Below are positions 20,563 to 33,846 of a DNA stretch of 39,876 nucleotides, in pieces. Location of the stretch: assembly GCA_021849615.1 (NCBI GenBank), contig JAJZSQ010000015.1:452-40327 (forward strand). The letters run 5' to 3'. The DNA comes from Pseudomonadota bacterium (GTDB lineage Bacteria; Pseudomonadota; Gammaproteobacteria; Steroidobacterales; Steroidobacteraceae). The notes beneath the pieces are model-generated. The model saw nothing but the letters and a program-made list of their open reading frames with translations. It was not told where the DNA came from and searched no databases. Numbering within the stretch: the stretch's first letter is position 1; each line of letters starts with the position of its first letter. Position numbers and translations under genes: made by a program.

Positions 20563-21657
20563 TCAGGACTCGGCACGTTCTGCCGCGACCACCCGGTTGC
20601 GGCCGGCGTCCTTGGCCCGGTACAGCGCGACATCCGCGTCCTGGATGAGCAGTTCTGCGGTGCAGCGCGGGTGAGCCGCTGACCGAGTGACCACACCGAT
20701 GCTGATGGTCAGATCGCGATGGTCCCAGCGAGCAGCCTGAACATCGGCGCGGATGCGTTCGGCGAGCGCGCGGGCCCCGTCACCATCCGTCGCTGGCAGT
20801 ATGACCACGAACTCCTCCCCGCCGTAGCGTGCGACGACGTCCGACTCCCGCGCCGCAGCGCGGATCACTTGCGCCAATTGGCGCAGCGCCTCATCACCGA
20901 TCTGATGACCGAAGTGATCGTTGTACGATTTGAAATAATCGGCGTCGATGAGCAGCAGCGAGAGCATTTCACCCGAGCGCTGACTGCGAGCTACTGCATG
21001 GTTCAGCTGCTGGGTGAGCGCGAGACGATTGTAAAGACCGGTGAGCGGATCGGTGATCGCCTGAGCATGCAGCTGCATGTTCAAGCGGCGCAGCCGGCTC
21101 TGGTATTCCTCGAGTTCGTTCTGGTAAGTCAGGGCTGACTCGAGCGCCGCCTCCAATGCCCGGTGCATCGAGCGCAGCTTCAGCTGCGCGGCGGCCTGTC
21201 GGGCGAGCGCCAGCAGCGCCGCGCGCTGGCGCGATTGGAGTCGCCGCGGCCGGTGATCGAGCACGCACAGCGTGCCGAGCGCACCGCCTTCGTCGGTGAC
21301 GAGCGGGGCGCCGGCATAGAAGCGGATGCGTGGGCCGTCGAGCACCAGGGGATTGTCGGCGAAGCGCTGGTCCGCTGCGGTGTCCGGCACTTCCATGATT
21401 TCACCGGGAACCAGAATGGCATGGGCGCAGAATGACAGTTCGCGCGCCGTCTGCTGCAGCTCCGTGCCGTAATGCGACTTGAACCACTGTCGGTCCGCGT
21501 CGATCAGACTGACGAGCGCCATTGGCGTATCGCAGAGCGTCGCAGCGAGCAGTGTCAGGTCATCGAACGCCTGCTCTGGGACGGAGTCGAGGATGGCGAG
21601 GATGCGCAGTGCCTCGAGACGTTCCCTCTCGTTGTCCGGGGCCGCCGCGCTCTTCAT
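20563..21657 (-). CDS. GAF-GGDEF diguanylate cyclase
   Basis: A 364-residue cytoplasmic protein that should make cyclic di-GMP from two GTP. Residues ~20-160 form a GAF domain of the kind with SLIDADRQWFKSHYG and SFCAHAI. A short helical linker with coiled-coil character (165-195) leads to the GGDEF domain (about 200-360). The active site is GGEEF (279-283), intact, and the upstream RESD (270-273) fits the RxxD inhibitory site, so product inhibition is expected. The start ATG at 21657 overlaps the stop of a nine-codon leader frame with a much better ribosome-binding site. It lies downstream of the MHYT-GGDEF-EAL gene on the same strand, 278 bases away. Confidence 0.93.
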   Translation of the reverse strand: MKSAAAPDNERERLEALRILAILDSVPEQAFDDLTLLAATLCDTPMALVSLIDADRQWFKSHYGTELQQTARELSFCAHAILVPGEIMEVPDTAADQRFADNPLVLDGPRIRFYAGAPLVTDEGGALGTLCVLDHRPRRLQSRQRAALLALARQAAAQLKLRSMHRALEAALESALTYQNELEEYQSRLRRLNMQLHAQAITDPLTGLYNRLALTQQLNHAVARSQRSGEMLSLLLIDADYFKSYNDHFGHQIGDEALRQLAQVIRAAARESDVVARYGGEEFVVILPATDGDGARALAERIRADVQAARWDHRDLTISIGVVTRSAAHPRCTAELLIQDADVALYRAKDAGRNRVVAAERAES

Positions 21658-21680
21658 CCGCTCGTGGCCGCTTTACGCAT
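21654..21680 (-). CDS. Eight-residue leader frame coupled to the GAF-GGDEF gene
   Basis: ATG at 21680-21678 with an excellent ribosome-binding site (AGGAG, six bases before) opens a frame encoding MRKAATSG and a TGA. That TGA (21656-21654) overlaps the ATG of the GAF-GGDEF gene (21657-21655) as ATGA. The cyclase ATG has only a weak ribosome-binding site of its own and is out of frame with the leader. This arrangement predicts that cyclase translation depends on re-initiation after the leader. Confidence 0.5.
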   Translation of the reverse strand: MRKAATSG

Positions 21681-21733
21681 GAGGTGCTCCTCTTGCAGGT
21701 CGCCTTCAGAATGCTAGCAAAGACCTCGGTCTG

Positions 21734-21751
21734 TGCGACAGTGTTGTCGCA
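21734..21751. promoter_or_regulatory. Inverted repeat upstream of the GAF-GGDEF gene
   Basis: TGCGACA-GTGT-TGTCGCA: 7-base perfect arms with a 4-base centre, about 75-95 bases upstream of the cyclase start. It could be an operator or, as RNA, a leader hairpin. No T-run follows, so it is not a terminator for the upstream gene, which ends 185 bases away. Confidence 0.4.
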
Positions 21752-21935
21752 AGCCGACGACGTGAGCGTTGACTTGCGGGTTGTATTGCGCCGGCTCGCG
21801 CCCGTGGGTTTCCGTGACCCCGTTGCTCTCACGATCCGTTCTGTCCCGGGTGCCCGACACGCGGGAGAGCACGCGGCCGTGCCGGAGGCGTTGGTCGGAC
21901 AGGTCGAGTCGGATCCGGACCGTTCCTGCGGCACG

Positions 21936-24083
21936 TCAATCGTCATTCGACGCAAGCAGCATCCCGCCCCAGGTCGGTCGGCGCAGCCGGGTGCTGGTGG
22001 CGGCGCTCTCCCCGACCCCGAGCCCGGCATGGGCACGCAGCTTCGATTCGAGGGAGGCGGCGCTTGCCGGCCGGCCGAACAGATAGCCCTGGTATTGATC
22101 GCAGCCGAGCGCGGCCAGACGGGCCAGCTGCAGCGGTGTCTCGACTCCCTCGGCGATGACCTTCATGTGCAAGCTGTGCGCCAGCGAGATGATGGCGTGC
22201 ACGATCACACCAGTCTGCGGATCGTCGTTCATCTCGCGCACGAAGCTGGCATCAATCTTGAGCCGGTCGATCGGGAAGCGCCGCAGATAACTCATGTTCG
22301 AATAGCCGGTGCCGAAATCATCGACCGATACCACCACGCCCATGCGGCTGAGCTGCTCGAGGATGGCCACCGAGGACTGCGCATCGGTCATGACCGCGCT
22401 CTCGGTGATCTCCAGCTCGAGCAGCATCGGCGGCAGCTGCTGCGCATCGAGCGCCGTGGCAATGGTGTGCAGCAGGCCACTTTCCCGAAACTGCAGTGCG
22501 GAGAGGTTGACGGCCACGCGCAGTGGCAGACCGTCGTTCTGCCACCGGCGCGCCTGGCGACAGGCTTCCTGCAGCACCCAGGCGCCGATCGGCAGGATGA
22601 GGCCGGTTTCCTCGGCAATCGGAATGAACGCGAGGGGTGGGATGTAGCCGCGTTCGGGGTGGCGCCAGCGCAGCAGAGCCTCGACGCTGCTGACGCGTCC
22701 GCTCACAACGTCGACCCGCGGCTGGTAGTGCAGCTCGAGCTGTCCGCGCTCCAGGGCTCGGTGCAGGTCGCTCTCCAGGCGCAGGCGTTCCTGCGTGAAG
22801 CCGTTCATGTCCGCGGCGAAACACTGCCAGGTCCGCCCGCCGCGCCGCTTCGCGCTGTACATGGCTTCGTCGGCGTGGGCGAGCAGCGTCTCCTGCGCGT
22901 CGGCGTCGCCCGGGTGCAGACTGATGCCGATGCTGGTGGACACCAGGACCTCGAGGCTGTCGAGGCGCAGCGGCTTGCTGAGTGCCTCGATGATGCTCTC
23001 GGCAATCTGGCCGGCCTCGGCGCGGCTGCGCACCTGGCGGGCGAGCACGAGAAATTCATCACCGCTCATACGGGCGACCGTGTCGCCCGAGCGCACCGCG
23101 GCGCGCAGTCGGCGCGCCACCTCGCGCAGCAGCTCATCGCCGACGCTGTGGCCGAGGGAATCGTTGATCAGTTTGAAGCGGTCGAGGTCGAGCGCGAGGA
23201 CGGCGAATGGACCCAGGCCGGTGCGCGCATCCATCAGGGCCGTCCCGAGACGCTCGAGGAAGGCCGTGCGGTTCGGCAGACCGGTCAGTGCATCGTGCAG
23301 AGCCTGATGTCGCAGCTGCGCGTTGATCTGACGCAGCCGGCCTGCATGGGCCCGGGCGCGGGCGGCCAGCTCGGTGGTGTACAGATCGCTGATCAGTGTG
23401 CAGGCGAGCACGCCGCCGGCGGCGAGCGCGATGGTTGCGGCGCACCAGAAGCTGTCGAGCACCAGGCCGCCGCGGCTGGCGGCTCCCGGCACGAAGTGTG
23501 CGGCGGCCATGCCCAGATAATGGGTGCCGCTGATCCCCAGGCCCATCAGCACCGCGCCGCCGAGGCGTGAGAGCGGGTGTGCGCTGTGGTTCCCCCGCAG
23601 CCGGAACGTCAGGCCCAGCGCAAGGCCCGAGGCGAGGATGCCAAAGAGGATGGAGGCGCCGACCCACACGGGGCGGTAGTGAATCGCGGGGGTGATGTCG
23701 ATGGCCGCCATGCCGAGGTAGTGCATGGCGGCGATGCCGCCGCCCATCACGAGGGCGCCGAAGCCGAGTCGGCGCACGCTGAGCCGCCCGACTGCCGCAA
23801 TGCGGATCGCGCCCCAGGAGGTCAGGATCGCCACCAGCAGCGACAGCAGCGTCACGGCGACGTTGTAGTGCAACTGGATCGACATCGACATGGCGAGCAT
23901 GCCGATGAAGTGCATCGACCAGATACCGATGCCGAGGACACAGGCTCCCCCGAACGTCCAGAACCGACGCAGGGGCCGGATCTCGTCGGTCACGCGCGCG
24001 GCGAGTCGAAATGCCGTGTAGGAGACGAAGACGGCGACCGCGACCGACAGCGCGACCAGCCAGCTATTGAATGTGGTGTGCAT
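21936..24083 (-). CDS. MHYT-GGDEF-EAL membrane protein, probably a c-di-GMP phosphodiesterase
   Basis: A 715-residue inner-membrane protein. Residues 1-~240 hold seven transmembrane helices with three MHYT-type motifs (SMHFIGM, AMHYLGM, GTHYLGM), a proposed copper-dependent sensor for oxygen, CO or NO. The GGDEF domain (about 262-425) reads SGDEF with Ser340 in place of the first Gly, and so is probably not a cyclase, though it may bind GTP. The EAL domain (about 437-680) keeps VEALLRW, DDFGTGYS, KIDASFV and EGVET, so the metal-binding and catalytic residues appear complete. The expected net activity is c-di-GMP hydrolysis. It is transcribed toward the GAF-GGDEF gene and divergent from tex. 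Confidence 0.92.
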   Translation of the reverse strand: MHTTFNSWLVALSVAVAVFVSYTAFRLAARVTDEIRPLRRFWTFGGACVLGIGIWSMHFIGMLAMSMSIQLHYNVAVTLLSLLVAILTSWGAIRIAAVGRLSVRRLGFGALVMGGGIAAMHYLGMAAIDITPAIHYRPVWVGASILFGILASGLALGLTFRLRGNHSAHPLSRLGGAVLMGLGISGTHYLGMAAAHFVPGAASRGGLVLDSFWCAATIALAAGGVLACTLISDLYTTELAARARAHAGRLRQINAQLRHQALHDALTGLPNRTAFLERLGTALMDARTGLGPFAVLALDLDRFKLINDSLGHSVGDELLREVARRLRAAVRSGDTVARMSGDEFLVLARQVRSRAEAGQIAESIIEALSKPLRLDSLEVLVSTSIGISLHPGDADAQETLLAHADEAMYSAKRRGGRTWQCFAADMNGFTQERLRLESDLHRALERGQLELHYQPRVDVVSGRVSSVEALLRWRHPERGYIPPLAFIPIAEETGLILPIGAWVLQEACRQARRWQNDGLPLRVAVNLSALQFRESGLLHTIATALDAQQLPPMLLELEITESAVMTDAQSSVAILEQLSRMGVVVSVDDFGTGYSNMSYLRRFPIDRLKIDASFVREMNDDPQTGVIVHAIISLAHSLHMKVIAEGVETPLQLARLAALGCDQYQGYLFGRPASAASLESKLRAHAGLGVGESAATSTRLRRPTWGGMLLASNDD

Positions 24084-24401: not shown

Positions 24402-26777
24402 ATGCTGTCCATCGAATCCCGTATTGCCGCGGAACTTGCGGTCCGTCCGCCGCAGGTTCTCGCCGCCGTCGCGCTGCTCGACGGCGGCGCCACTGTCCCG
24501 TTCGTCGCCCGCTACCGCAAGGAGGCCACCGGGGGCCTCGACGATGCTCAGCTGCGCACGCTGCAGGAGCGTCTGGTTTATCTGCGCGAGCTCGAGGAGC
24601 GGCGCGCGGTCGTGCTGAAGAGCATCGAGGAGCAGGGCAAATTGACGCCCGAGCTGCGCGCGAACGTCGAGGCAGCCGACACCAAGCAGCGGCTCGAGGA
24701 TTTGTATCTACCCTACAAGCCCAAGCGGCGCACCAAGGCGCAGATCGCGCGCGAGGCGGGCCTGGATGTCCTCGCCGCCGCGCTGCTCGAGGACCCGCGG
24801 CTTGATCCAGAGCGCGAGGCAGCCAAGTACCTGCGCGAGCCGTTCAGCACCGAGCAGGGCGAGAACCCGGGTGCGCCGGACGCCAAGGCGGCGCTGGAGG
24901 GCGCCCGCCAGGTGTTGATGGAGCGCTTCGCGGAGGATGCAGCGCTGGTCGGCGCGCTGCGCGAGCACCTGCGCGAGACGGGCTGGGTGGTCGCGAAGCT
25001 CGAGGCGGGCAAGGAAGAGGCAGGCGCGAAGTTTCGCGACTACTTCGACTATCGCGAGCCGTTCAAGGCGATTCCTTCGCATCGGGCGCTCGCGCTGTTT
25101 CGCGGGCGCAAGGAGCAGGTGCTGCAGGTCGTTCTGAAGCTGCCCGAGCAGCTCGAGTCCGACGGTGCGCCCGCACCCGCTGCCGAGGTCACCTCCTGCG
25201 AGCGCAAAATCGCCGCCCGCTTCGCGATTGCCGATCAGGGACGAGCGGCCGATGCGTGGCTCGCCCAGACGGTGCGCTGGTGCTGGCAGGTGAAGCTGGC
25301 CTGGCAGCTCGAGGGCGAGCTGTTCGCCGAGCTGCGCGAAAGCGCCGAAGCCGAGGCGATCTCGGTGTTCGCACGCAATCTGCACGACCTGCTGCTCGCC
25401 GCGCCGGCCGGTCCGCGCGCGACGATGGGGCTCGATCCGGGTCTGCGCACCGGAGTGAAGGTCGCCGTCGTTGACCGTACCGGTAAGGTGCTCGATACCG
25501 CGACGGTCTACCCGCACGTGCCGCGCAATGATTGGGAGGCGGCGCTGCAGGTGCTCGCGGCGCTCTGCCGCAAGCATTCGGTCGATCTGATCAGCATCGG
25601 CAATGGGACGGCGTCCCGCGAGACGGACCGGTTGGCCGCCGATCTGATCAAGCGTTTTCCCGATCTGAAGCTCACCAAGATCGTCGTATCGGAGGCCGGT
25701 GCCTCGGTGTACTCGGCATCCGAGCTCGCATCGCGCGAGCTGCCGGAGCTCGACGTCAGCCTGCGCGGTGCGGTGTCGATTGCGCGGCGCCTGCAGGACC
25801 CGCTCGCCGAGCTGGTCAAAATCGATCCGAAATCGATCGGCGTCGGTCAGTACCAGCACGACGTCAACCAGAGCAAGCTCGCCCGTTCACTCGACGCGGT
25901 GGTCGAGGACTGCGTCAACGCCGTCGGTGTCGACGTCAACACCGCCTCCCCGGCGCTTCTGGCGCGCATCTCGGGCCTTTCGGCTACCCTGGCCGAGTCC
26001 ATCGTGCGCCACCGCAACGAGCACGGGGCGTTCCCGAGCCGCGCGGCGCTGCTCGCCGTGCCGCGTTTGGGCGCAAAGACGTTCGAGCAGGCTGCGGGCT
26101 TCCTGCGCGTCAATGACGGTTCGAACCCGCTTGACCGCTCCTCGGTGCACCCGGAGGCCTATCTGCTCGTCGAGCGCATCCTCGAGGATCTCGGCAAGCC
26201 ACTCGCCCAGGTGATGGGCGACGCCGGCACGCTGAAGCAGCTCGATGCCAACCGGTACACCGATGAGCGCTTCGGTCTGCCGACGGTACGCGACATTCTG
26301 CGCGAGCTCGAGAAGCCCGGCCGCGATCCGCGTCCGGAATTCAAGACCGCGGTATTCCACGAGGGTGTGGAGGATCTGAAGGATCTCACGCCCGGCATGC
26401 TGCTCGAGGGCGTGGTGACCAACGTCACCAACTTCGGCGCATTCGTCGACATCGGTGTGCACCAGGACGGTCTGGTGCACATCTCGATGATGTCGCACCG
26501 GTTCGTGAAGGACCCGCGCGAGCTCGTCAAGGCGGGCGACGTGGTCAAGGTCAAAGTGCTCGAGGTCGATCTGCAGCGCCGGCGCGTCGCGCTCACCATG
26601 CGGCTCGATGAGGCTCCGTCGCGCGAGCGCACCGGCGGTGCGCCGCGCGCGAGCGGGGGAGCGGATCGGAACCGCGGCAACTCGCGATCCGCTCCGCGTG
26701 CCCCTGCGGCTCGCGCCGCCGAGGCGGGCGGCAATGGCGTGATGGCCGAGGCTTTGGCCCGCGCGCTGAAGCGCTAG
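24402..26777 (+). CDS. tex: Transcription accessory protein Tex
   Basis: A 791-residue nucleic-acid-binding protein, full length for Tex (usually 730-790). Domains in order: Tex N-terminal helical region with [17 protein letters not shown] and the [20 protein letters not shown] segment (residues ~30-125); YqgF/RuvC-like domain from [17 protein letters not shown] (~341) to ~460; helix-hairpin-helix region with [18 protein letters not shown] and [16 protein letters not shown] (~505-575); S1 domain with [20 protein letters not shown] and GLVHISMMS (~660-735); and an Ala/Arg/Gly tail. Tex affects transcription and RNA stability and is conserved across bacteria. The ATG at 24402 gives the standard N-terminus ([12 protein letters not shown]); an upstream TTG in frame is rejected. 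It is convergent with the Rieske gene, 22 bases apart. Confidence 0.95.
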
Positions 26778-26799
26778 CGACGCACGGCGCTGCGCCGGC

Positions 26800-27759
26800 T
26801 CACGTGGGCGGTGCAGCGCACGTACTGCCCTTCAGCGCGCTGAAGTAATAGTGACGAAAGCGCAGCGTCGCGCGGTCGGTGGGGACGGAACGGTCGGCGC
26901 GCGCCGGTGGGATCTCCGGCGGCTCGGAGGATTCGACGATGGCGCGGTCCTCCCCGGCGATGCGCCGGTTGGCGCGATTGAACAGCCCATCGAGCAGTGG
27001 CGAGCGCGCGAAATTGCGTGCGGCGCTCAGCAGGAGCTTGGTGCGCCGTTCAGCCACCGGAATGCAGGCCACCGCCAGCGTCAGCTCACGGCCGGGCACG
27101 GGAATGTGCAAATTCATCTGGTTGGGCCGGCGAAAATCGAGCATGCCGGGGCGCACCTGCCCGTGCAGTGCCGTGCGAACACGCCATCCCCACTCCTGCG
27201 GCTCGATCAGTGTCTCGAGACGCTCCCCAAGCAGCGCCACGAGGTCCTTGCCGATGGTGCGCCGGTGCACGAAAGGCAGGTGCGGCCAATCGAGCATGTT
27301 CTCCATCGCACGGGTCCAGTGCGTGTTCCAGGTCATCTCGATGCCGCTGATCCGGGTGCGGGTGCCGAGCAGTGCCTCATGCACGGACGGGGGCTGCGGT
27401 GGCGGATCGCCCGTCGAGGTGTGGATCCAGATCTGGCCAGCGAGCTCGGCAGCAGGCACGGCGAGGGCGGCGAGGCGCTCGCGGCGCACGTCGGGATTCC
27501 AGGGAACCTCGACGCACTGTCCGGAGCGCGCGAAACGCCAGCCGTGAAACGGGCACTGCAGGCAGCCGTCCACCACGGTTCCCAGTGAGAGCGCCACGCC
27601 CCGGTGGGGGCAGCGGTCGAGCAGGGCCGCGGGCGCCCCGTGCGCGTCCCGAAACAGCACGAGCGCCGTGCCGGCCACCTCGATGCGCAGGGGGCGGGTG
27701 CGCCCCAGCCGCGAGCTGAACGCGACGGGGGTCCAGACCTGGGCGAAGTCCTGGAACAT
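26800..27759 (-). CDS. Rieske non-heme iron oxygenase, coupled to the B12-type regulator
   Basis: A 319-residue oxygenase. The Rieske [2Fe-2S] motif is CPHR-x14-CLQCPFHGW (residues ~46-70). The mononuclear-iron site in the second half is ENMLDWPHLPFVHRR, giving the Asn/Asp-x-x-His-x4-His arrangement of Rieske oxygenases. Such enzymes use a reductase and O2 to hydroxylate or demethylate aromatic, terpenoid, steroid or tetrapyrrole rings; the overall form (short C-terminal domain, single alpha subunit) is VanA- or PaO-like. The ATG at 27759 comes 5 bases after the regulator stop with AAGGGG as ribosome-binding site, so translation is coupled. No reductase gene is adjacent. The substrate is unknown. 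Confidence 0.9.
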   Translation of the reverse strand: MFQDFAQVWTPVAFSSRLGRTRPLRIEVAGTALVLFRDAHGAPAALLDRCPHRGVALSLGTVVDGCLQCPFHGWRFARSGQCVEVPWNPDVRRERLAALAVPAAELAGQIWIHTSTGDPPPQPPSVHEALLGTRTRISGIEMTWNTHWTRAMENMLDWPHLPFVHRRTIGKDLVALLGERLETLIEPQEWGWRVRTALHGQVRPGMLDFRRPNQMNLHIPVPGRELTLAVACIPVAERRTKLLLSAARNFARSPLLDGLFNRANRRIAGEDRAIVESSEPPEIPPARADRSVPTDRATLRFRHYYFSALKGSTCAAPPT

Positions 27760-27764
27760 CCCCT

Positions 27765-28706
27765 TCACCCCGCGTTGGCAATGGGACTTTGGTGTTCGGC
27801 CCGGTACTCGGCGATCACCCGCGGCAGCTGCTCGAGGCGGGTGATGAAGCGCACGCCCGGGAGGCGGCGGCGCAGCCGGGCCCAGAGTGCACCGCCGGCC
27901 CAGATTTCGATCCGCTCCGGCAGCCGGTCCCGCAGGTCTGTGAGCATCTCGAGTGCGGCCTTCTGCCGCAGCGCCTCGCTGAAGGACAGGCCGACGACGT
28001 CGATCCCCTTCTGCCGCGCTGCCTCGCTGATGTCCCAGGCGGGCGTCTGTACGCCTAAGGAGACGCAGCGTATGCCTTCGACTGCCAGACACGCCTGGGC
28101 CATCAGCAGTCCCAACTGGTGTTCCTCGCCCGGCAGTGTCGTCAGCATCACGCTGGGGCCGCGCACCCCGGGGTAGATCGCCCCGATGCCCTGGCGCAGC
28201 TGGTGCTGCATCTGTTCGGTGTAGAGGTGCTCCTGACTGATCGAGAGCTGGCCGAGCGACCACGTCTCGCCGACCTTGAGATTCATCGGCGCCGCGAAAT
28301 CGATGACGAAGCGCTGAAGTCCGAGCCGCTGCAACGTCAGGGACAGATGCGAGCGCAGAGCGGCTTCGTCATAGGCCGCCAGGAGCCGCAGCGTCGTGTC
28401 GAGCCGCTCGCCGTCCTCAGAGCGGGCGCCCTGGGGGGGCATCCCGCCCTCGTCCGATGCCCGCGCGAGCAGCGTCTCGAGTGGTGCGCCGACCAACTGG
28501 CCCGGACGCAGCCCGCGGTCGAGCAGGCGGCTGATCAGCCGCAGCTTGTGCACCTGGTCTTGCGGGTAGAGGCGCTCGCCGTGCGCATCGCGCCGCGGGA
28601 GTGGAAACCCATAGCGACGCTCCCACACCCGCAAGGTGTCCTTGGAAAGCCCCGTCTCGCGCTCCACGGCGCTGATCGACGCATCGGGTAGCTGATGGAT
28701 GGGCAC
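27765..28706 (-). CDS. MerR-type regulator with B12-binding domain (CarH/LitR-like photoreceptor)
   Basis: A 313-residue light-sensor-type repressor. Residues ~9-75 are a MerR helix-turn-helix (ISAVERETGLSKDTLRVWER with RYGFP). Residues ~105-175 are the helical cobalamin-cap domain, with the diagnostic Wx9EH motif (W149, E159, H160). Residues ~180-290 are the Rossmann B12 domain with ExHxxG (E194, H196, G199), where the His is the expected lower ligand of cobalt. In CarH, adenosylcobalamin drives tetramer formation and DNA binding, and light breaks it. The residue after Trp149 is Ser, whereas from memory Thermus CarH has His there. GTG 28706 is chosen, with AGGA upstream; a TTG at 28721 would lack a ribosome-binding site. 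Confidence 0.9.
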   Translation of the reverse strand: MPIHQLPDASISAVERETGLSKDTLRVWERRYGFPLPRRDAHGERLYPQDQVHKLRLISRLLDRGLRPGQLVGAPLETLLARASDEGGMPPQGARSEDGERLDTTLRLLAAYDEAALRSHLSLTLQRLGLQRFVIDFAAPMNLKVGETWSLGQLSISQEHLYTEQMQHQLRQGIGAIYPGVRGPSVMLTTLPGEEHQLGLLMAQACLAVEGIRCVSLGVQTPAWDISEAARQKGIDVVGLSFSEALRQKAALEMLTDLRDRLPERIEIWAGGALWARLRRRLPGVRFITRLEQLPRVIAEYRAEHQSPIANAG

Positions 28707-28709
28707 AAA

Positions 28710-28720
28710 TGTCCTGGACA
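28710..28720. promoter_or_regulatory. Operator box 1 in the regulator-folE2 gap
   Basis: TGTCCTGGACA is a perfect palindrome around one base. With the following AAAA it matches box 2 at 13 of 15 positions. It lies 4 bases upstream of the folE2 -35 hexamer and covers the ribosome-binding region of the regulator gene. TGGACA within it is repeated as TTGACA exactly 10 bases further on. Confidence 0.6.
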
Positions 28721-28724
28721 AAAA

Positions 28725-28753
28725 TTGACAGAGCTCACTTTCAAGCCTATTGT
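28725..28753 (+). promoter_or_regulatory. folE2 promoter
   Basis: TTGACA (28725-28730), a perfect -35, is followed after 17 bases by TATTGT (28748-28753), four of six to the -10 consensus. Transcription would start near 28760, giving a leader of about 47 bases. Operator boxes lie immediately upstream of the -35 and just downstream of the start point, as expected for repression. Confidence 0.65.
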
Positions 28754-28771
28754 TTCAGCGAAAAGTCATTT

Positions 28772-28782
28772 TGTCTAGGACA
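28772..28782. promoter_or_regulatory. Operator box 2 in the regulator-folE2 gap
   Basis: TGTC-TAG-GACA sits inside the longer inverted repeat TTTTGTC-TAG-GACAAAA (28769-28785). Its centre is 62 bases from that of box 1, close to six helical turns, placing both boxes on the same DNA face. It lies within the transcribed leader of folE2. Confidence 0.58.
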
Positions 28783-28806
28783 AAAAAAGGTTTACGAGGA
28801 CGCTTC

Positions 28807-29631
28807 ATGAATGCTGCTGCCCGTTCTGTTCTGGCCGATGTTCAAGCCAGCCCCGACACCCGCAACATCCGCATCAACCGGGTGGGCGTGAAAGGCTTGC
28901 GGACCCTGCTGCGGGTACGCCAGGCGGACGGCGGCGAGCAATCCACGGTGGCCCGGCTGGACATGTCCGTCGGGCTCCCGGGCGAAGTGAAGGGGACCCA
29001 CATGTCCCGCTTCGTCGAGATCATCGAGGCCAATCCCTCCGCGCTCGATCTGCCGGCGCTGCTGGCGTTGCTGCAGCGGATGCTCGCGCGGCTCGGAGCC
29101 GACCGTGGCGAGATCGCTCTGGCCTGCACGTACTTCATCCGCAAAGCCGCGCCGGTCTCGGGCGTGGAGAGCCTGCTCGATCATGAAATCCTGATGCGCG
29201 CCGTACACGACCCGCACGGCGGAACGCGAGCGACGCTGCAGGTGTGCGTTCCGGTGACGAGTCTGTGCCCCTGTTCAAAGGAAATTTCCGAATACGGTGC
29301 GCACAACCAGCGCTCGCACGTCACCATCGAGGCGCAGCTGAACGCGCCGATGACGATCGAGGAACTGGTGCGCATCGCTGAGGAAGAGGCGTCCTGCGAA
29401 GTGTTCGGGTTACTGAAGCGGCCGGATGAAAAATTCGTCACCGAGCGCGCCTATGAGAATCCGAAGTTCGCCGAAGATCTCGTACGCGACATCGCCGTGC
29501 GTTTGAACGCCGAGCAGCGGATTACGCGCTACCGCGTGACAGCGGAGAACTTCGAGTCCATCCACAACCACTCGGCGTTTGCCGAAATCGAGCACGAGGC
29601 GTCCGCGACCGATCGTCTGCACCTCGCCTGA
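28807..29631 (+). CDS. folE2: GTP cyclohydrolase IB (FolE2)
   Basis: Converts GTP to 7,8-dihydroneopterin triphosphate, the first step of folate and pterin synthesis, with a metal other than zinc if needed. The 274-residue product has RINRVGVKGLRTLLRV, then VGLPGEVKGTHMSRFVEII, the signature TSLCPCSKEIS (candidate metal/catalytic Cys154), HNQRSHVTIEAQ, and FESIHNHSAFAEIEHEA near the end. All are typical of the COG1469 family. GAGGA is six bases before the ATG at 28807. In many bacteria folE2 is under Zur control; here no Zur-type site is seen, and the gene instead faces a B12-type regulator with paired operators, suggesting light control. Confidence 0.95.
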   Translation: MNAAARSVLADVQASPDTRNIRINRVGVKGLRTLLRVRQADGGEQSTVARLDMSVGLPGEVKGTHMSRFVEIIEANPSALDLPALLALLQRMLARLGADRGEIALACTYFIRKAAPVSGVESLLDHEILMRAVHDPHGGTRATLQVCVPVTSLCPCSKEISEYGAHNQRSHVTIEAQLNAPMTIEELVRIAEEEASCEVFGLLKRPDEKFVTERAYENPKFAEDLVRDIAVRLNAEQRITRYRVTAENFESIHNHSAFAEIEHEASATDRLHLA

Positions 29632-29634
29632 TCG

Positions 29635-29656
29635 CGCCGGCGCCCAGGCGCCGGCG
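29635..29656 (+). terminator. Hairpin directly after folE2
   Basis: A perfect inverted repeat with 10-base arms (CGCCGGCGCC and complement) around CA begins three bases after the folE2 stop. No T-run follows, so it is at best a terminator of the non-canonical GC-rich kind or an mRNA-stabilising stem. Confidence 0.42.
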
Positions 29657-29915
29657 GCGTGCACCGCCTGAATGCCGGCCGCACGGCCCCGGCTGGCGCG
29701 CCGCCGGGCGGGGGCGTAAGGTAAGTCCACATGAGGGAGGGGGCTTGGACAACCTGTGCGCGGGTTCTCAGGGCGCCGGGGCGTGATGCACCGTGTCGCT
29801 GCACAGTACCTGCTGAGCGAAGGATTCGCGTCGCAACACCCGACTGCGGTCACCAACGGCGTACCCTGCGGGGACGCGCGTGTGATCTTCGCGATTGAAC
29901 GGAGTGCAGGTGCCG

Positions 29916-32729
29916 ATGCGTTGGACGACGGAACGCAAGACGCAGCTCGCCTTCGCCTGTGCTTTGGCCTGCGTGGTGCTGATCGGGGTCGTTTCCGTGC
30001 TCAGCCTGCAGCGCCTGCGGCGCGATGCCGCCTGGGTCACGCACACCGTCACGGTGCTCGCCGATCTGCGCGAGCTCCAGGATGGCATCGAGACGGCCGA
30101 GTCCGACGAACGCGACTTCCTCATCACCCAGAGTCAGGCCGATCTGCACGACTACCGGGACGCCGCGAAGTCCATCGAAAGCGGCTACGGACAGCTGAAG
30201 CGCCAGACGGCCGATAACCCGCTCGAACAGCACCGCCTGGTACGGCTCGCGCCGCTGCTCGCTGCCCGCATTGCCGGCCTGAGCGACCTGCTCGCGCTGC
30301 GGCGCGAGCAAGGGTTCCGCGCCGCGCAGCGCCAGCAGGTGCTGGCGCGAGAGCATCGCACGGCCGCCGAGCAGATCGACCGGATCATCGGCCGGATGCG
30401 CACCACCGAGCGCACGTTGCTCGCGGGCCGCGAGGCGACCGCCGCGCTGCGTGCGCACCTGACCGAGCAGACCGTCGCAGTCGGCGGTGCACTGGCCATC
30501 ATCATCACCGCTCTGGCGCTCTGGGCGCTGCGGCGGGACTTCGCCGGGCGCCGCCGCGCTGAGACCGCGGTGCGCCAGCTGAACGCCGAACTCGAGAATC
30601 GCGTCATCCAGCGCACCGATGAGCTGGCCCGCGCCACCGCATCCGTGCAGGCCAGCGAGCGGCGGCTGCGCGCATTCGTCAGTACGACCTCGGATGTCGT
30701 GTACCAGATCGCGCCGGACTGGAGCGAACTGCGCGCACAGCGCGCCGATCGCGACGGCGGGGCGCCGCCGGTGGCGACCACGGAATGGCTCGAACGGTTC
30801 GTCCATCCCGAGGATCGCGAGCGGGTGCGAGCGGCCGTCGCCGAGGCGCTGCGCACCGGCGGGGTGCTGGAGCTCGAGCATCGCGTCCGCCGAAGTGATG
30901 GCAGTGTCGGGTGGGTGGTGTCCCGGGCCGTCCCGCTTAAGGACGGCGCGGATCGCGTGGTCGAGTGGTTCGGCGCCGCCAGCGACGTGACCGAACGCAA
31001 GGAGGCGCGCCTGAAACTCGAAGCGCAGCTCGCGCGACTGAACCTGCTCGGCAGCATCACGCGGGCCATGGGCGAGCGCCAGGACGTGCACAGCATCTTC
31101 CAGGTCGTCATCCGGACCCTCGAGGAGCACCTGGCGCTCCATTTCTGCTCGATCTGCCGCTACGACGGCGCGGCGCATCGCCTGATCGTCGCGCGTGTCG
31201 GGGTGCAAAGTGGAGCGCTCGCGCTCGAATTGGCGCTCGGGGAGAATGCCAGCATCGATACCGGTCAGAACGGCCTGTCACGCTGCGTGCAGGGCGAGCT
31301 GGTGTATGAGCCGGATCTGGTGGCGCTCGATGCGCTGTTCCCGCGCCGCCTGGCCGCCGGTGGCCTCGGGTCGCTGGTGGCGGCGCCGCTGCGCTTCGAG
31401 AGTCAGGTGTTCGGCGTGCTGCTCGCCGCGCGGCGCGAGCCACGCAGCTTCTCGAGCGGAGAGTGTGAGTTTCTGCGGCAGCTCGCCGAGCACGTTGCGC
31501 TCGCGGCGCAGCAGACGCAACTGCACGAGGCGCTGCAGCGCGCCTACGACGATCTGCGTCAGACGCAGCAGGCGGTGCTGCAGCAGGAACGGCTGCTCGC
31601 GCTCGGCACGATGGCGAGCGGCATCGCGCACGACATCAACAATGCGATCTCGCCGATCATGTTGTATACGGACATGCTGCTCGAGGACCGCGAGGTGCCG
31701 TCCCGGGCCCACAAGCCGCTGCAGGTGATTCAGCGTGCGGTCGAGCAGGTGGCGCATACGGTGGCGCGTATGCGCGAGTTCTACCGCATGCGTGAGCCGC
31801 AACAGCGACTCACGCCCGTCGACCTGAATCAGCTCGTCACCGACGTGCTCGACCTGACCCGTGCGCGCTGGAGCGACATGCCGCAGCAGCGCGGCGTCGT
31901 GATCGAGCTGCAGACCGAACTGCAGCCGGAGCTGCCGCGCGTGCCAGGCGTCGCCAGCGAGCTGCGCGATGCGCTCACCAACCTGGTGTTCAATGCCGTC
32001 GATGCGATGCCGCAGGGCGGACGCTTGCGGCTGCAGACGCGCTTGCTGACGCCGGCCGCAGCGAGCGGCGGCGCGCGAGGATACGTGCAGCTGGCGGTGA
32101 CCGACTCGGGAGTAGGCATGGACGAAGAGACCCGCAGCCGCTGTCTCGAGCCGTTCTATACGACCAAGGGTGAGCGTGGCACCGGCCTCGGGCTGCCGAT
32201 GGTCTACGGCGCCATGCAGCGCCACGGTGGTGAAGTAGAGGTCGCGAGCGTCCTCGGCAAAGGAACCTGCGTGACGCTCAGCTTCCCGGTGACGCGCGAC
32301 GACGCCGGAGGCGTGACCGGGATCAATGCCGTCGAGGTGGTTCCACCCCGATGCATTCTGCTCGTCGATGACGATCCGATCGTGATGCAGTCGACCCGAG
32401 AGACGCTGAGTGCTGACGGCCATGCCGTTACCATCGCCGACGGAGGTCAGGCCGGCATCGACGCGTTCCGCTGCGCGTTGAGTGCGGGGCAACCCTACGA
32501 CGTCGTCATCACGGATCTCGGCATGCCGCAGGTCGATGGCCGTCAGGTGGCTGCGGCCGTCAAGAGCGCCCGTGCGCAGACGCTCGTCCTGCTTCTGACG
32601 GGCTGGGGGCGCCGGCTGGTGGAGGAGGGAGAGATCCCGCCGCACGTGGATCGGGTGCTCACCAAGCCGCCGCGTCTGCACGAGCTGCGCGCGGCATTGG
32701 TGCCGCCCGGCGATGCGCCGGCGGCCTGA
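29916..32729 (+). CDS. Hybrid sensor histidine kinase (CHASE3-PAS-GAF-HisKA-HATPase-REC)
   Basis: A 937-residue membrane kinase. A first transmembrane helix (about 12-32) and a second (about 187-205) flank a periplasmic CHASE3-type sensor (ELQDGIETAESDERDFLITQ). Then come a PAS domain with C-terminal PAC (about 240-365), a GAF domain (about 385-530), a dimerisation domain with the phospho-acceptor His572 in SGIAHDINNAI, an ATPase domain (N-box LVFNAVDAM, GTGLGLPMVYG) and a C-terminal receiver with the phospho-acceptor Asp867 in VVITDLGMPQVDG. No HPt domain follows. ATG 29916 is chosen because GCAGG precedes it; an upstream TTG is in frame. Its stop is 4 bases from the stop of a convergent REC-EAL gene, a likely partner. 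Confidence 0.93.
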   Translation: MRWTTERKTQLAFACALACVVLIGVVSVLSLQRLRRDAAWVTHTVTVLADLRELQDGIETAESDERDFLITQSQADLHDYRDAAKSIESGYGQLKRQTADNPLEQHRLVRLAPLLAARIAGLSDLLALRREQGFRAAQRQQVLAREHRTAAEQIDRIIGRMRTTERTLLAGREATAALRAHLTEQTVAVGGALAIIITALALWALRRDFAGRRRAETAVRQLNAELENRVIQRTDELARATASVQASERRLRAFVSTTSDVVYQIAPDWSELRAQRADRDGGAPPVATTEWLERFVHPEDRERVRAAVAEALRTGGVLELEHRVRRSDGSVGWVVSRAVPLKDGADRVVEWFGAASDVTERKEARLKLEAQLARLNLLGSITRAMGERQDVHSIFQVVIRTLEEHLALHFCSICRYDGAAHRLIVARVGVQSGALALELALGENASIDTGQNGLSRCVQGELVYEPDLVALDALFPRRLAAGGLGSLVAAPLRFESQVFGVLLAARREPRSFSSGECEFLRQLAEHVALAAQQTQLHEALQRAYDDLRQTQQAVLQQERLLALGTMASGIAHDINNAISPIMLYTDMLLEDREVPSRAHKPLQVIQRAVEQVAHTVARMREFYRMREPQQRLTPVDLNQLVTDVLDLTRARWSDMPQQRGVVIELQTELQPELPRVPGVASELRDALTNLVFNAVDAMPQGGRLRLQTRLLTPAAASGGARGYVQLAVTDSGVGMDEETRSRCLEPFYTTKGERGTGLGLPMVYGAMQRHGGEVEVASVLGKGTCVTLSFPVTRDDAGGVTGINAVEVVPPRCILLVDDDPIVMQSTRETLSADGHAVTIADGGQAGIDAFRCALSAGQPYDVVITDLGMPQVDGRQVAAAVKSARAQTLVLLLTGWGRRLVEEGEIPPHVDRVLTKPPRLHELRAALVPPGDAPAA

Positions 32730-32733
32730 TCGG

Positions 32734-33846
32734 CTAGACGCTCAGGGCCGGCCGCCCGAATAGATAGCCCTGCAGCAGATCGACGCCGAGCCGCCGCGCG
32801 GTCGTGGCTTCAGCCTCCGTCTCGATGCCCTCGAGCACCACGCGGCTGCCGGTGGCCTGCGCGAAGCGGGTCAGCAGCTCGACCAGGCGTTGTTTGCGCT
32901 CCTCGCGGTCGATGTTGCGCACGATGCTCATGTCGACTTTCAGGAATGCCGGCTGCAGCTCCGCCAACACGGCAAGGGAATTGTACCCGGAACCCAGATC
33001 GTCGATCGCGATGCGAAAGCCGGCCTGCGAGAGCCAGAGGATGGCGGCCCGCCAGTCGGTCTCCTCCAGCAGGTTGCTGCGCTCGGTGATCTCGATCACC
33101 AGTCGATCCGCGGCGGCGCGCAGCGGCTCAAAGCGGCGCTTCACCGCCGGCAGATCCGCCAGCTCGCGCGGGTGGGCGTTGATGAACAGCAGCAGTCCCT
33201 GCGGAAGCTTGTTCAGCCAGTCCGCGGCGGCGAGCGCGATCCAGTCGGCGAGCGGGCCGAGCATGTCGTGTGTCTCGGCCGCCCCCAGCACTCGCAGCGG
33301 CGTGTTGAGTGTGGGGTGGCGGCTGCGCAGCAGCGCCTCGTAGCCGTGCAGGCTGCCGCTGTCGGCCTCGATGAGCGGCTGCACGGCGAGCTGCAGCATG
33401 CGGCTGCTGAGGCAGGCGTCGAGCTCGCGGCGCTGCTGTTCCAACACATCCTGTTGGGCGCGTCCGTAGATCTGCTCGAGCCGGCCGCGCTCTGCGAGGG
33501 CTTCCTCCAGCACGTTGAACAGTGCCTCGAGACGAAAGGGCTTGGCGACCAGACGGGAGACTTCGCCGCGGTTGACTGCGCCCATGACGACTGGAAGATC
33601 CAGCGAGCCTGACATCAGTACGCGCACGCAGCGCGGTTGCGCCGTTCGCAGCTGGCGCAGGATCTCGAGTCCATCGGGCGGCGGCAGCTGGTAGTCGACG
33701 ACCGCAGCATCGTAATGCTCCGCCGAGATGCGGCGCAGCGCCTCGGGGCCGTCGCCGGCTTCCTCGACGTCACAGCCCCTGTGCTCCATCGCGGCCCGCA
33801 GAACCGAACGGAGGTTGTTGTCGTCATCGACGACCAGAACACGCAT
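32734..33846 (-). CDS. Response regulator with EAL c-di-GMP phosphodiesterase output
   Basis: A 370-residue soluble protein. Residues 1-120 are a receiver with the acidic pair VDDD and the phospho-acceptor Asp51 in AVVDYQLPPP. A helical linker leads to an EAL domain (about 140-365) with GYEALLRSR, AIDDLGSGYNS, KVDMSIVRNID and LEGIETEAE, so the catalytic metal and base residues look present. It should cleave c-di-GMP to pGpG when phosphorylated. GGAGAG precedes the ATG. It is arranged tail-to-tail with the hybrid kinase gene, with only 4 bases between the stops, which suggests linked function but separate promoters. TATAAC lies about 35 bases upstream of the start on the minus strand. Confidence 0.93.
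   Translation of the reverse strand: MRVLVVDDDNNLRSVLRAAMEHRGCDVEEAGDGPEALRRISAEHYDAAVVDYQLPPPDGLEILRQLRTAQPRCVRVLMSGSLDLPVVMGAVNRGEVSRLVAKPFRLEALFNVLEEALAERGRLEQIYGRAQQDVLEQQRRELDACLSSRMLQLAVQPLIEADSGSLHGYEALLRSRHPTLNTPLRVLGAAETHDMLGPLADWIALAAADWLNKLPQGLLLFINAHPRELADLPAVKRRFEPLRAAADRLVIEITERSNLLEETDWRAAILWLSQAGFRIAIDDLGSGYNSLAVLAELQPAFLKVDMSIVRNIDREERKQRLVELLTRFAQATGSRVVLEGIETEAEATTARRLGVDLLQGYLFGRPALSV

Follow-up and report, generated by a model that had tools for sequence, protein, structure and literature searches.

The window, the whole stretch of 39,876 nucleotides that was analysed, carries a CarH-like regulator gene and a folE2 gene in divergent orientation, and the gap between them holds two copies of a candidate operator box and two predicted promoters:

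26800..27759, minus strand: Rieske/VanA_C-type oxygenase (Pfam), starting 5 bases past the regulator stop
27765..28721, minus strand: CarH-like MerR/B12-binding regulator (ORF list, Pfam, motifs and fold)
28709..28721, no strand: putative operator box R, ATGTCCTGGACAA, with one mismatch to the consensus (core match)
28725..28753, plus strand: predicted folE2 promoter, TTGACA-17 bp-TATTGT (consensus scan)
28749..28777, minus strand: predicted regulator promoter, TAGACA (in box F)-17 bp-AACAAT (consensus scan)
28771..28783, no strand: putative operator box F, TTGTCTAGGACAA (core match), containing the regulator -35
28807..29631, plus strand: folE2 paralogue encoding the GTP cyclohydrolase FolE2, 274 aa (PF02649, NCBIfam)

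The open reading frame of the regulator is listed from a TTG at 28721 (318 aa), and a GTG five codons in, at 28706 (313 aa), is likely to be the true start because it is preceded by AGGA. Residue numbers given here follow the 318-residue reading and are five higher than those of the initial annotation (its W149 is W154), which had the coordinates of the gene right and had also recognised its CarH/LitR motifs (MerR helix-turn-helix, Wx9EH and ExHxxG), in agreement with Pfam and the alignment. Its distance of about 100 bases to folE2 also holds, with 100 bases counted from the GTG to the folE2 ATG (28807).

The regulator matches the Pfam families MerR_1 (2e-14) and B12-binding (1.6e-9; PF02310, residues 190-281), and B12-binding_2 at 1.7e-4 with 22.2 bits, slightly below the 23-bit cut-off. 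The DNA-binding RxWERRY motif lies within LRVWERRYGFP. Signatures of CarH homologues are Wx9EH and ExHx2Gx41SxV/Tx22-27GG (PMC8156234, in excerpt), of which the former is present as W154, E164 and H165, invariant in 33 aligned rows, and the latter as E199-x-H201-xx-G204, x41, S246-F-S248, x27 and G276 G277, the V/T position being occupied by Ser. The closest solved sequences are those of Thermus thermophilus CarH/LitR (1e-27), and a Foldseek search with the AlphaFold model (mean pLDDT 86, pTM 0.66, from an alignment of 33 rows) placed T. thermophilus CarH (TtCarH) first, at 2.7e-17. The cobalamin domain of the model superposes on the leading CarH rows at 2.4-2.6 Å across 192-197 residues, and the full-length rmsd is about 15-21 Å, which means that the model does not reproduce how the two domains are placed relative to each other. 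The score against the NCBIfam CarH equivalog is 124.8 bits, far from the cut-off of 400, which makes the regulator a relative of CarH, not an equivalog. Unlike class II LitR, in which the four-helix half is all that is left of the B12 domains, it retains PF02310. Motifs and modelled fold thus support its assignment as a CarH-type protein that would bind B12, and a cobalamin adenosyltransferase is encoded in the same genome.

The regulator differs from TtCarH in the residue directly after the Trp, which is Ser after W154 where TtCarH has His. The 80 related loci used for comparison are the best 80 of at least 555 regulator matches, from named genome records, and so sample the near clade, not the whole family; across them this position holds Met (26), Ala (24), Leu (10), Ser (9), Ile (5), Thr (3) or Val (3), and His in 0/80. 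The Trp, the Glu of EH, the Glu and His of ExH, the Gly and both residues of GG are present in 80/80 of these relatives and the His of EH in 79/80, H165 being, besides the lower ligand, the sole other His conserved at 79-80 of 80. Among 11 more distant regulators (L025-L035; ten from the same bacterial family and one from the order), W-H occurs in eight and E-R replaces E-H in seven.

In the light state of TtCarH, the cobalt is capped by His132, directly after the Trp, and an H132A variant is reported to be mostly tetrameric in light, an earlier report quoted in the same paper giving disassembly (PMC10442372, in excerpt). A His after the Trp serves as upper bis-His ligand in many, not all, CarH proteins (PMC9304148), and is therefore not strictly defining. 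In photocobilins the light state is a water- or hydroxide-bound Co(III) with no bis-His ligation, and the dimer contact is still lost (PMC10979010, in excerpt). Because TtCarH H132A was reported as mostly tetrameric in light, the absence of a His132 equivalent could, by analogy, weaken the light response of the regulator. It had been suggested from the sequence that the Ser after the Trp may alter the light-state cobalt ligand, which fits the absence of the known ligand His here and in 80/80 relatives. The bis-His switch is the standard account of how CarH converts light into DNA release, and a clade with the other B12 contacts and without this His provides a natural experiment on the need for that ligand.

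The putative operator has the 13-bp consensus TTGTCCWGGACAA, two copies of which lie 62 bp apart between the regulator and folE2, with box R immediately preceding the folE2 -35 and overlapping the regulator start region. The window contains just two copies of the operator core, TGTCNNNGACA, and this gap holds both. In relatives, the core lies at most 400 bp upstream of the regulator helix-turn-helix in 76/79 loci and is present in 30/30 of the folE2-linked ones; since the core had been derived from the window, its rate elsewhere in those loci serves as control, at 0.024 per kb in their remainder against 3.4 per kb upstream of the regulators. The box centre is A in 55 and T in 53 of 108 sites. 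Two boxes stand 60-80 bp apart in 19/79 loci, 63 bp being the commonest distance (ten loci), and when the 24 aligned box pairs are taken in the direction of the regulator, the far box is T-centred and the near box A-centred. The recurring 62-65 bp spacing may follow from the geometry of divergent promoters that overlap at their -10 elements (28725-28777).

Whereas characterised CarH proteins have tandem 11-bp direct repeats (nnnnTnnACAn) as their operator, the conserved unit here is the inverted repeat TTGTCCWGGACAA, a difference that is not strictly defining. A tandem 11-bp pair lies near only nine of the 79 related regulators, and such repeats are not supported as the main operator. In the window, TGGACA of box R and TTGACA of the -35 are 10 bp apart, and TnnACA is found 11 bp beyond the A-centred box in 7 of 52 relatives' boxes. 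Upstream of the 11 more distant regulators, tandem 11-bp repeats occur in five and the inverted box in none. Several spellings of the box, searched for in open-licence papers, matched only papers that are unrelated by title.

Two sigma-70-like promoters were predicted by the consensus scan in 28650-28850, where shuffled sequences gave 0.1. Their -10 elements share five bases, and that of the regulator, AACAAT, is weak. In relatives, the T-centred box supplies a -35 (TNGACA) with a 17-bp spacer (54 boxes, including that of the window), the mean -10 score being 4.54 at a spacing of 17, against a background of 1.57 and 3.37 at the next best spacing of 22. TTGAC is found within 14 bases after 24 of the 55 A-centred boxes of relatives and is absent after the other 31, and TANNNT follows 17 bp on in 20 of those 24 cases. 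TNGACA inside the A-centred box was also considered as a -35 and rejected, since no spacing was prominent and the signal is a separate TTGAC beyond the box. Because the T-centred box supplies a -35 and TTGAC adjoins a part of the A-centred boxes, repression is likely to proceed by covering or crowding the -35, and the conservation of boxes and promoters supports a model in which folE2 would be controlled from the shared gap. No Rfam RNA, riboswitches included, reached its gathering score in 26000-30500, and zinc control of folE2 by Zur was rejected, as a Zur palindrome was unmatched in the window at up to three mismatches.

The regulator and folE2 also lie divergently in 30 of the 80 related loci, which were not selected for folE2, and the arrangement is thus confirmed as more than chance. 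In 17 of the 23 linked loci from outside the genus, folE2 and the regulator ORF are over 500 bases apart, often with another gene in the gap, for example a glutathione-peroxidase-like one, so direct control of folE2 is clearest within the genus. The Rieske gene probably forms one operon with the regulator, because only 5 bases separate the two, and is probably co-transcribed with it. Of the 14 genus loci L010-L023, nine have a Rieske match adjoining the regulator, partial in two cases, and among loci L045-L116 such a match is present in L050 alone, itself a member of the genus. Solved relatives of the enzyme include dicamba O-demethylase and methylxanthine demethylases. Five of the contigs that carry the locus (L045, L047, L049, L054 and L099) are titled Bordetella parapertussis MAG, and these labels look doubtful.

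The product of folE2 matches PF02649 at 3e-88 (296 bits) and the NCBIfam FolE2 equivalog at 269.9 against a cut-off of 215, and its active-site-region motifs SLCPCSK and GAHNQRSH are identical, letter for letter, to those of a solved FolE2. The genome (3.19 Mb, 87% complete) contains two FolE2 genes, the second on contig C175 with 57% identity, and no PF01227-type FolE was found in it. The idea that this folE2 is the sole GTP cyclohydrolase gene, by which dark repression would amount to folate starvation, was rejected on account of the copy on C175.

Within the genus, the regulator-folE2 pair is present in 12 of 58 genomes, all 12 of which have two folE2 matches, the second being partial in one (G020, profile positions 29-260). 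The other 46 never have two full copies: two pieces were found in G036 and G024, and one match or none in the rest. PF01227 FolE was found in none of the 12 genomes with the pair and in 31 of the 46 others. A further 27 genomes behind the related loci represent 18 of the linked loci from outside the genus, chosen from 23, and nine of the 50 unlinked loci; every one of the 18 genomes with the pair has two folE2 matches or more, and the nine without it have one (seven genomes) or none (two). A tree built on 82 rows unites the linked folE2 copies of the genus in one group (100/99); the branch that contains this group (100/96) also takes in three unlinked copies and eight linked ones from other genera, and the other folE2 copies of the genus fall separately (100/99). 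Because the linked and the other copies group separately, this folE2 is, by its position in the tree, nearer to the regulator-linked kind of Betaproteobacteria and not a recent local duplicate. A single subfamily of linked FolE2 is not supported, since linked copies from outside the genus are scattered and three unlinked copies fall in the same wider branch as the present copy.

It had been expected that the regulon would extend elsewhere in the genome, with operator copies near phr and folate genes proposed as a check. A search that allowed one mismatch found the box in this genome (87% complete) only in the regulator-folE2 gap, which goes against that expectation; the reversed pattern, used as control, gave 11 forward matches, so the search was able to hit. 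One photolyase gene was found in the genome, matching the solved DNA photolyase 4u63 at 8e-148, and TGTCNNNGACA was present neither in the 6.6 kb around it nor around the other folE2 on C175. With no box near the photolyase, a coordinated repair regulon is not seen in this genome. The exact box occurs in 11 of the 58 genus genomes, in ten of them at the regulator and in one, G038, elsewhere. The site in G038, which has no regulator match, is at C37:15540 (L128, L172). Among the 27 related genomes, 16 have the exact box and 11 do not.

The gene clusters found in the 80 loci comprise an FAD oxidoreductase (54), DUF1365 (50), a CFA-type methyltransferase (39), folE2 (30), a glutathione-peroxidase-like protein (28) and a photolyase-related DPRP (10), counts in which one representative per cluster was named by Pfam, a few mistaken joins are possible and some loci end at contig ends. 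The genes beside the box were also examined at 14 further sites fetched from related genomes. At one of these (L240) a photolyase starts 5 bases from the box, and elsewhere the adjoining genes encode lipocalins (L244, L246), a fasciclin (L248), an SDR (L251), amine-oxidase-type flavin oxidoreductases (L238, L247), DUF3429 (L238), a LytTR regulator (L243) and ABC1 (L250). The ORFs of L241 resemble those of L238, and no convincing gene start was seen beside the box at L239, L242 and L249. Judged by their annotation, the genes beside the box in relatives support a photo-oxidative context. Near-identical short ORFs lie beside the box in G148 (L244, 2611-2927, plus strand; L245, 2099-2500, minus strand), near contig ends; they begin like the regulator helix-turn-helix and then diverge, and may be a remnant or an assembly effect.

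A photolyase above the family cut-off is present in 16/16 regulator-positive genus genomes, three of which have a partial regulator match, and in 18/42 of the others (Fisher p 4e-5, uncorrected for kinship). In G034 (L169), genes for the regulator, a Rieske protein, an ECF-like sigma factor, an RskA-like anti-sigma factor, a photolyase, a fatty acid desaturase and an FAD oxidoreductase are clustered without a linked folE2, and in L170 (G055) and L171 (G039) a partial regulator match lies near a photolyase.

Together, the computed motifs, predicted fold, boxes, promoter signals, paralogue pattern and genes beside the box in relatives make it probable that the regulator is a light-operated, adenosylcobalamin (AdoCbl)-dependent dark repressor of a two-way promoter that supplies extra pterin; B12 binding, light response, repression and the purpose of the pterin are what we infer from them. 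In the dark, AdoCbl-loaded regulator would sit on both boxes and silence folE2 and its own gene, with box F covering the regulator -35 and box R abutting the folE2 -35 and overlapping the regulator start. In light, the adenosyl group would be split off, the oligomer would loosen and the DNA would be released, allowing transcription of the extra FolE2 and of the regulator-Rieske operon, and autoregulation would reset the switch. The additional GTP cyclohydrolase would raise pterin and folate in light while the separate FolE2 covers normal growth, and the pterin might serve as folate antenna of the photolyase, replace photo-oxidised folate or provide something for the Rieske enzyme. In the open-licence papers searched, neither light nor B12 data turned up for any member of the clade.

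A different reading, to which a small probability is given, is that the regulator senses cobalamin and not light, so that the AdoCbl level sets folE2 and links folate to B12-dependent methionine synthesis. AdoCbl is required for repression by CarH (PMC8156234, in excerpt), the genome encodes a MetH-sized B12 protein along with the adenosyltransferase, and the absence of the light-state His would fit such a sensor as well. However, the photoprotective-looking genes beside the box in relatives, photolyase among them, and the presence of a photolyase in every regulator-positive genome of the genus argue for light, and the adenosyltransferase occurs in 56/58 genomes, so the regulator is not predicted by B12 use. 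It is less probable still that photoreception was lost in the clade, leaving a B12-independent repressor that is freed by a partner, as CarA is by CarS or class II LitR by a short LOV protein. Both provide precedents for release by a partner (PMC8156234 and PMC9758184, in excerpt) and the missing His132 equivalent is compatible with lost photoreception, but the Trp is intact, unlike in CarA, and the Rossmann B12 motif is kept in the 80 relatives, unlike in class II LitR.

Very improbable is a chance neighbourhood in which the regulator controls only itself and the Rieske gene. Two genus loci, L022 and the truncated L023, do keep the regulator and Rieske gene without a folE2 match, but the recurrence of divergent folE2 in distant species, the box and TTGAC-17-TANNNT signal pointing at folE2 in the genus and the folE2 copy-number pattern all speak against it.

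The regulator shares the MerR domain, Wx9EH, ExHx2G..S..GG, the predicted fold and an operator overlapping a -35 with CarH of T. thermophilus and class I LitR, and differs from CarH in its probable target, which is folE2 here and carotenoid genes there. Class II LitR of Pseudomonas (PplR, PmlR2) has a light-inducible GTP cyclohydrolase gene in its regulon too, but keeps one of the two B12-binding domains, whereas the regulator here retains the B12-binding PF02310. Light-inducible genes of P. putida include FolE, and folE of P. mendocina is induced 1.6- to 3.3-fold by light (PMC9758184, in excerpt), a review giving folE2 for P. putida (PMC8508746, in excerpt). The precedent of light-induced folE2 through LitR-like proteins in Pseudomonas, named in the initial annotation, is thus broadly borne out by these excerpts, with the qualification that it acts via class II LitR. 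The RpoE/ChrR singlet-oxygen regulon of Rhodobacter likewise holds folE2, photolyase, CFA-type, SDR and fasciclin genes, kinds of gene that also occur with the regulator or beside the box in relatives, and FolE2 is one of seven proteins whose levels rise in both species (PMC7074977, in excerpt); control there is by a sigma factor and anti-sigma factor, and here would be by a B12 repressor. The excerpted text of a Vibrio cholerae MerR/ChrR paper (PMC5241685) contains nothing on a cyclohydrolase. Photocobilins differ in also using biliverdin and in controlling enzyme domains, and are not MerR DNA-binding proteins.

The sensor family, the operator-over-promoter logic and a light-linked GTP cyclohydrolase are already known. 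A search of the open-licence literature did not find a clade lacking the bis-His ligand together with an inverted-repeat operator and a further FolE2. It is tentatively proposed that Beta- and Gammaproteobacteria have, in this clade, a large subclass of B12 photoreceptors with no bis-His ligation, a 13-bp inverted-repeat operator and a photo-oxidative regulon that includes a recurrent dedicated FolE2, and that in the genus this regulon may have shrunk to a stand-alone light-to-pterin switch based on a single pair of divergent promoters that overlap. Pterin supply would then be a recurrent light-linked function, under LitR in Pseudomonas, RpoE/ChrR in Rhodobacter and this regulator elsewhere, served in the present case by an additional copy of the enzyme.

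On its far side, folE2 is adjoined by genes for a CHASE3-PAS-GAF hybrid histidine kinase (29895-32729, plus strand) and a REC-EAL protein (32734-33846, minus strand), and more GGDEF/EAL genes lie at 20563-24083.
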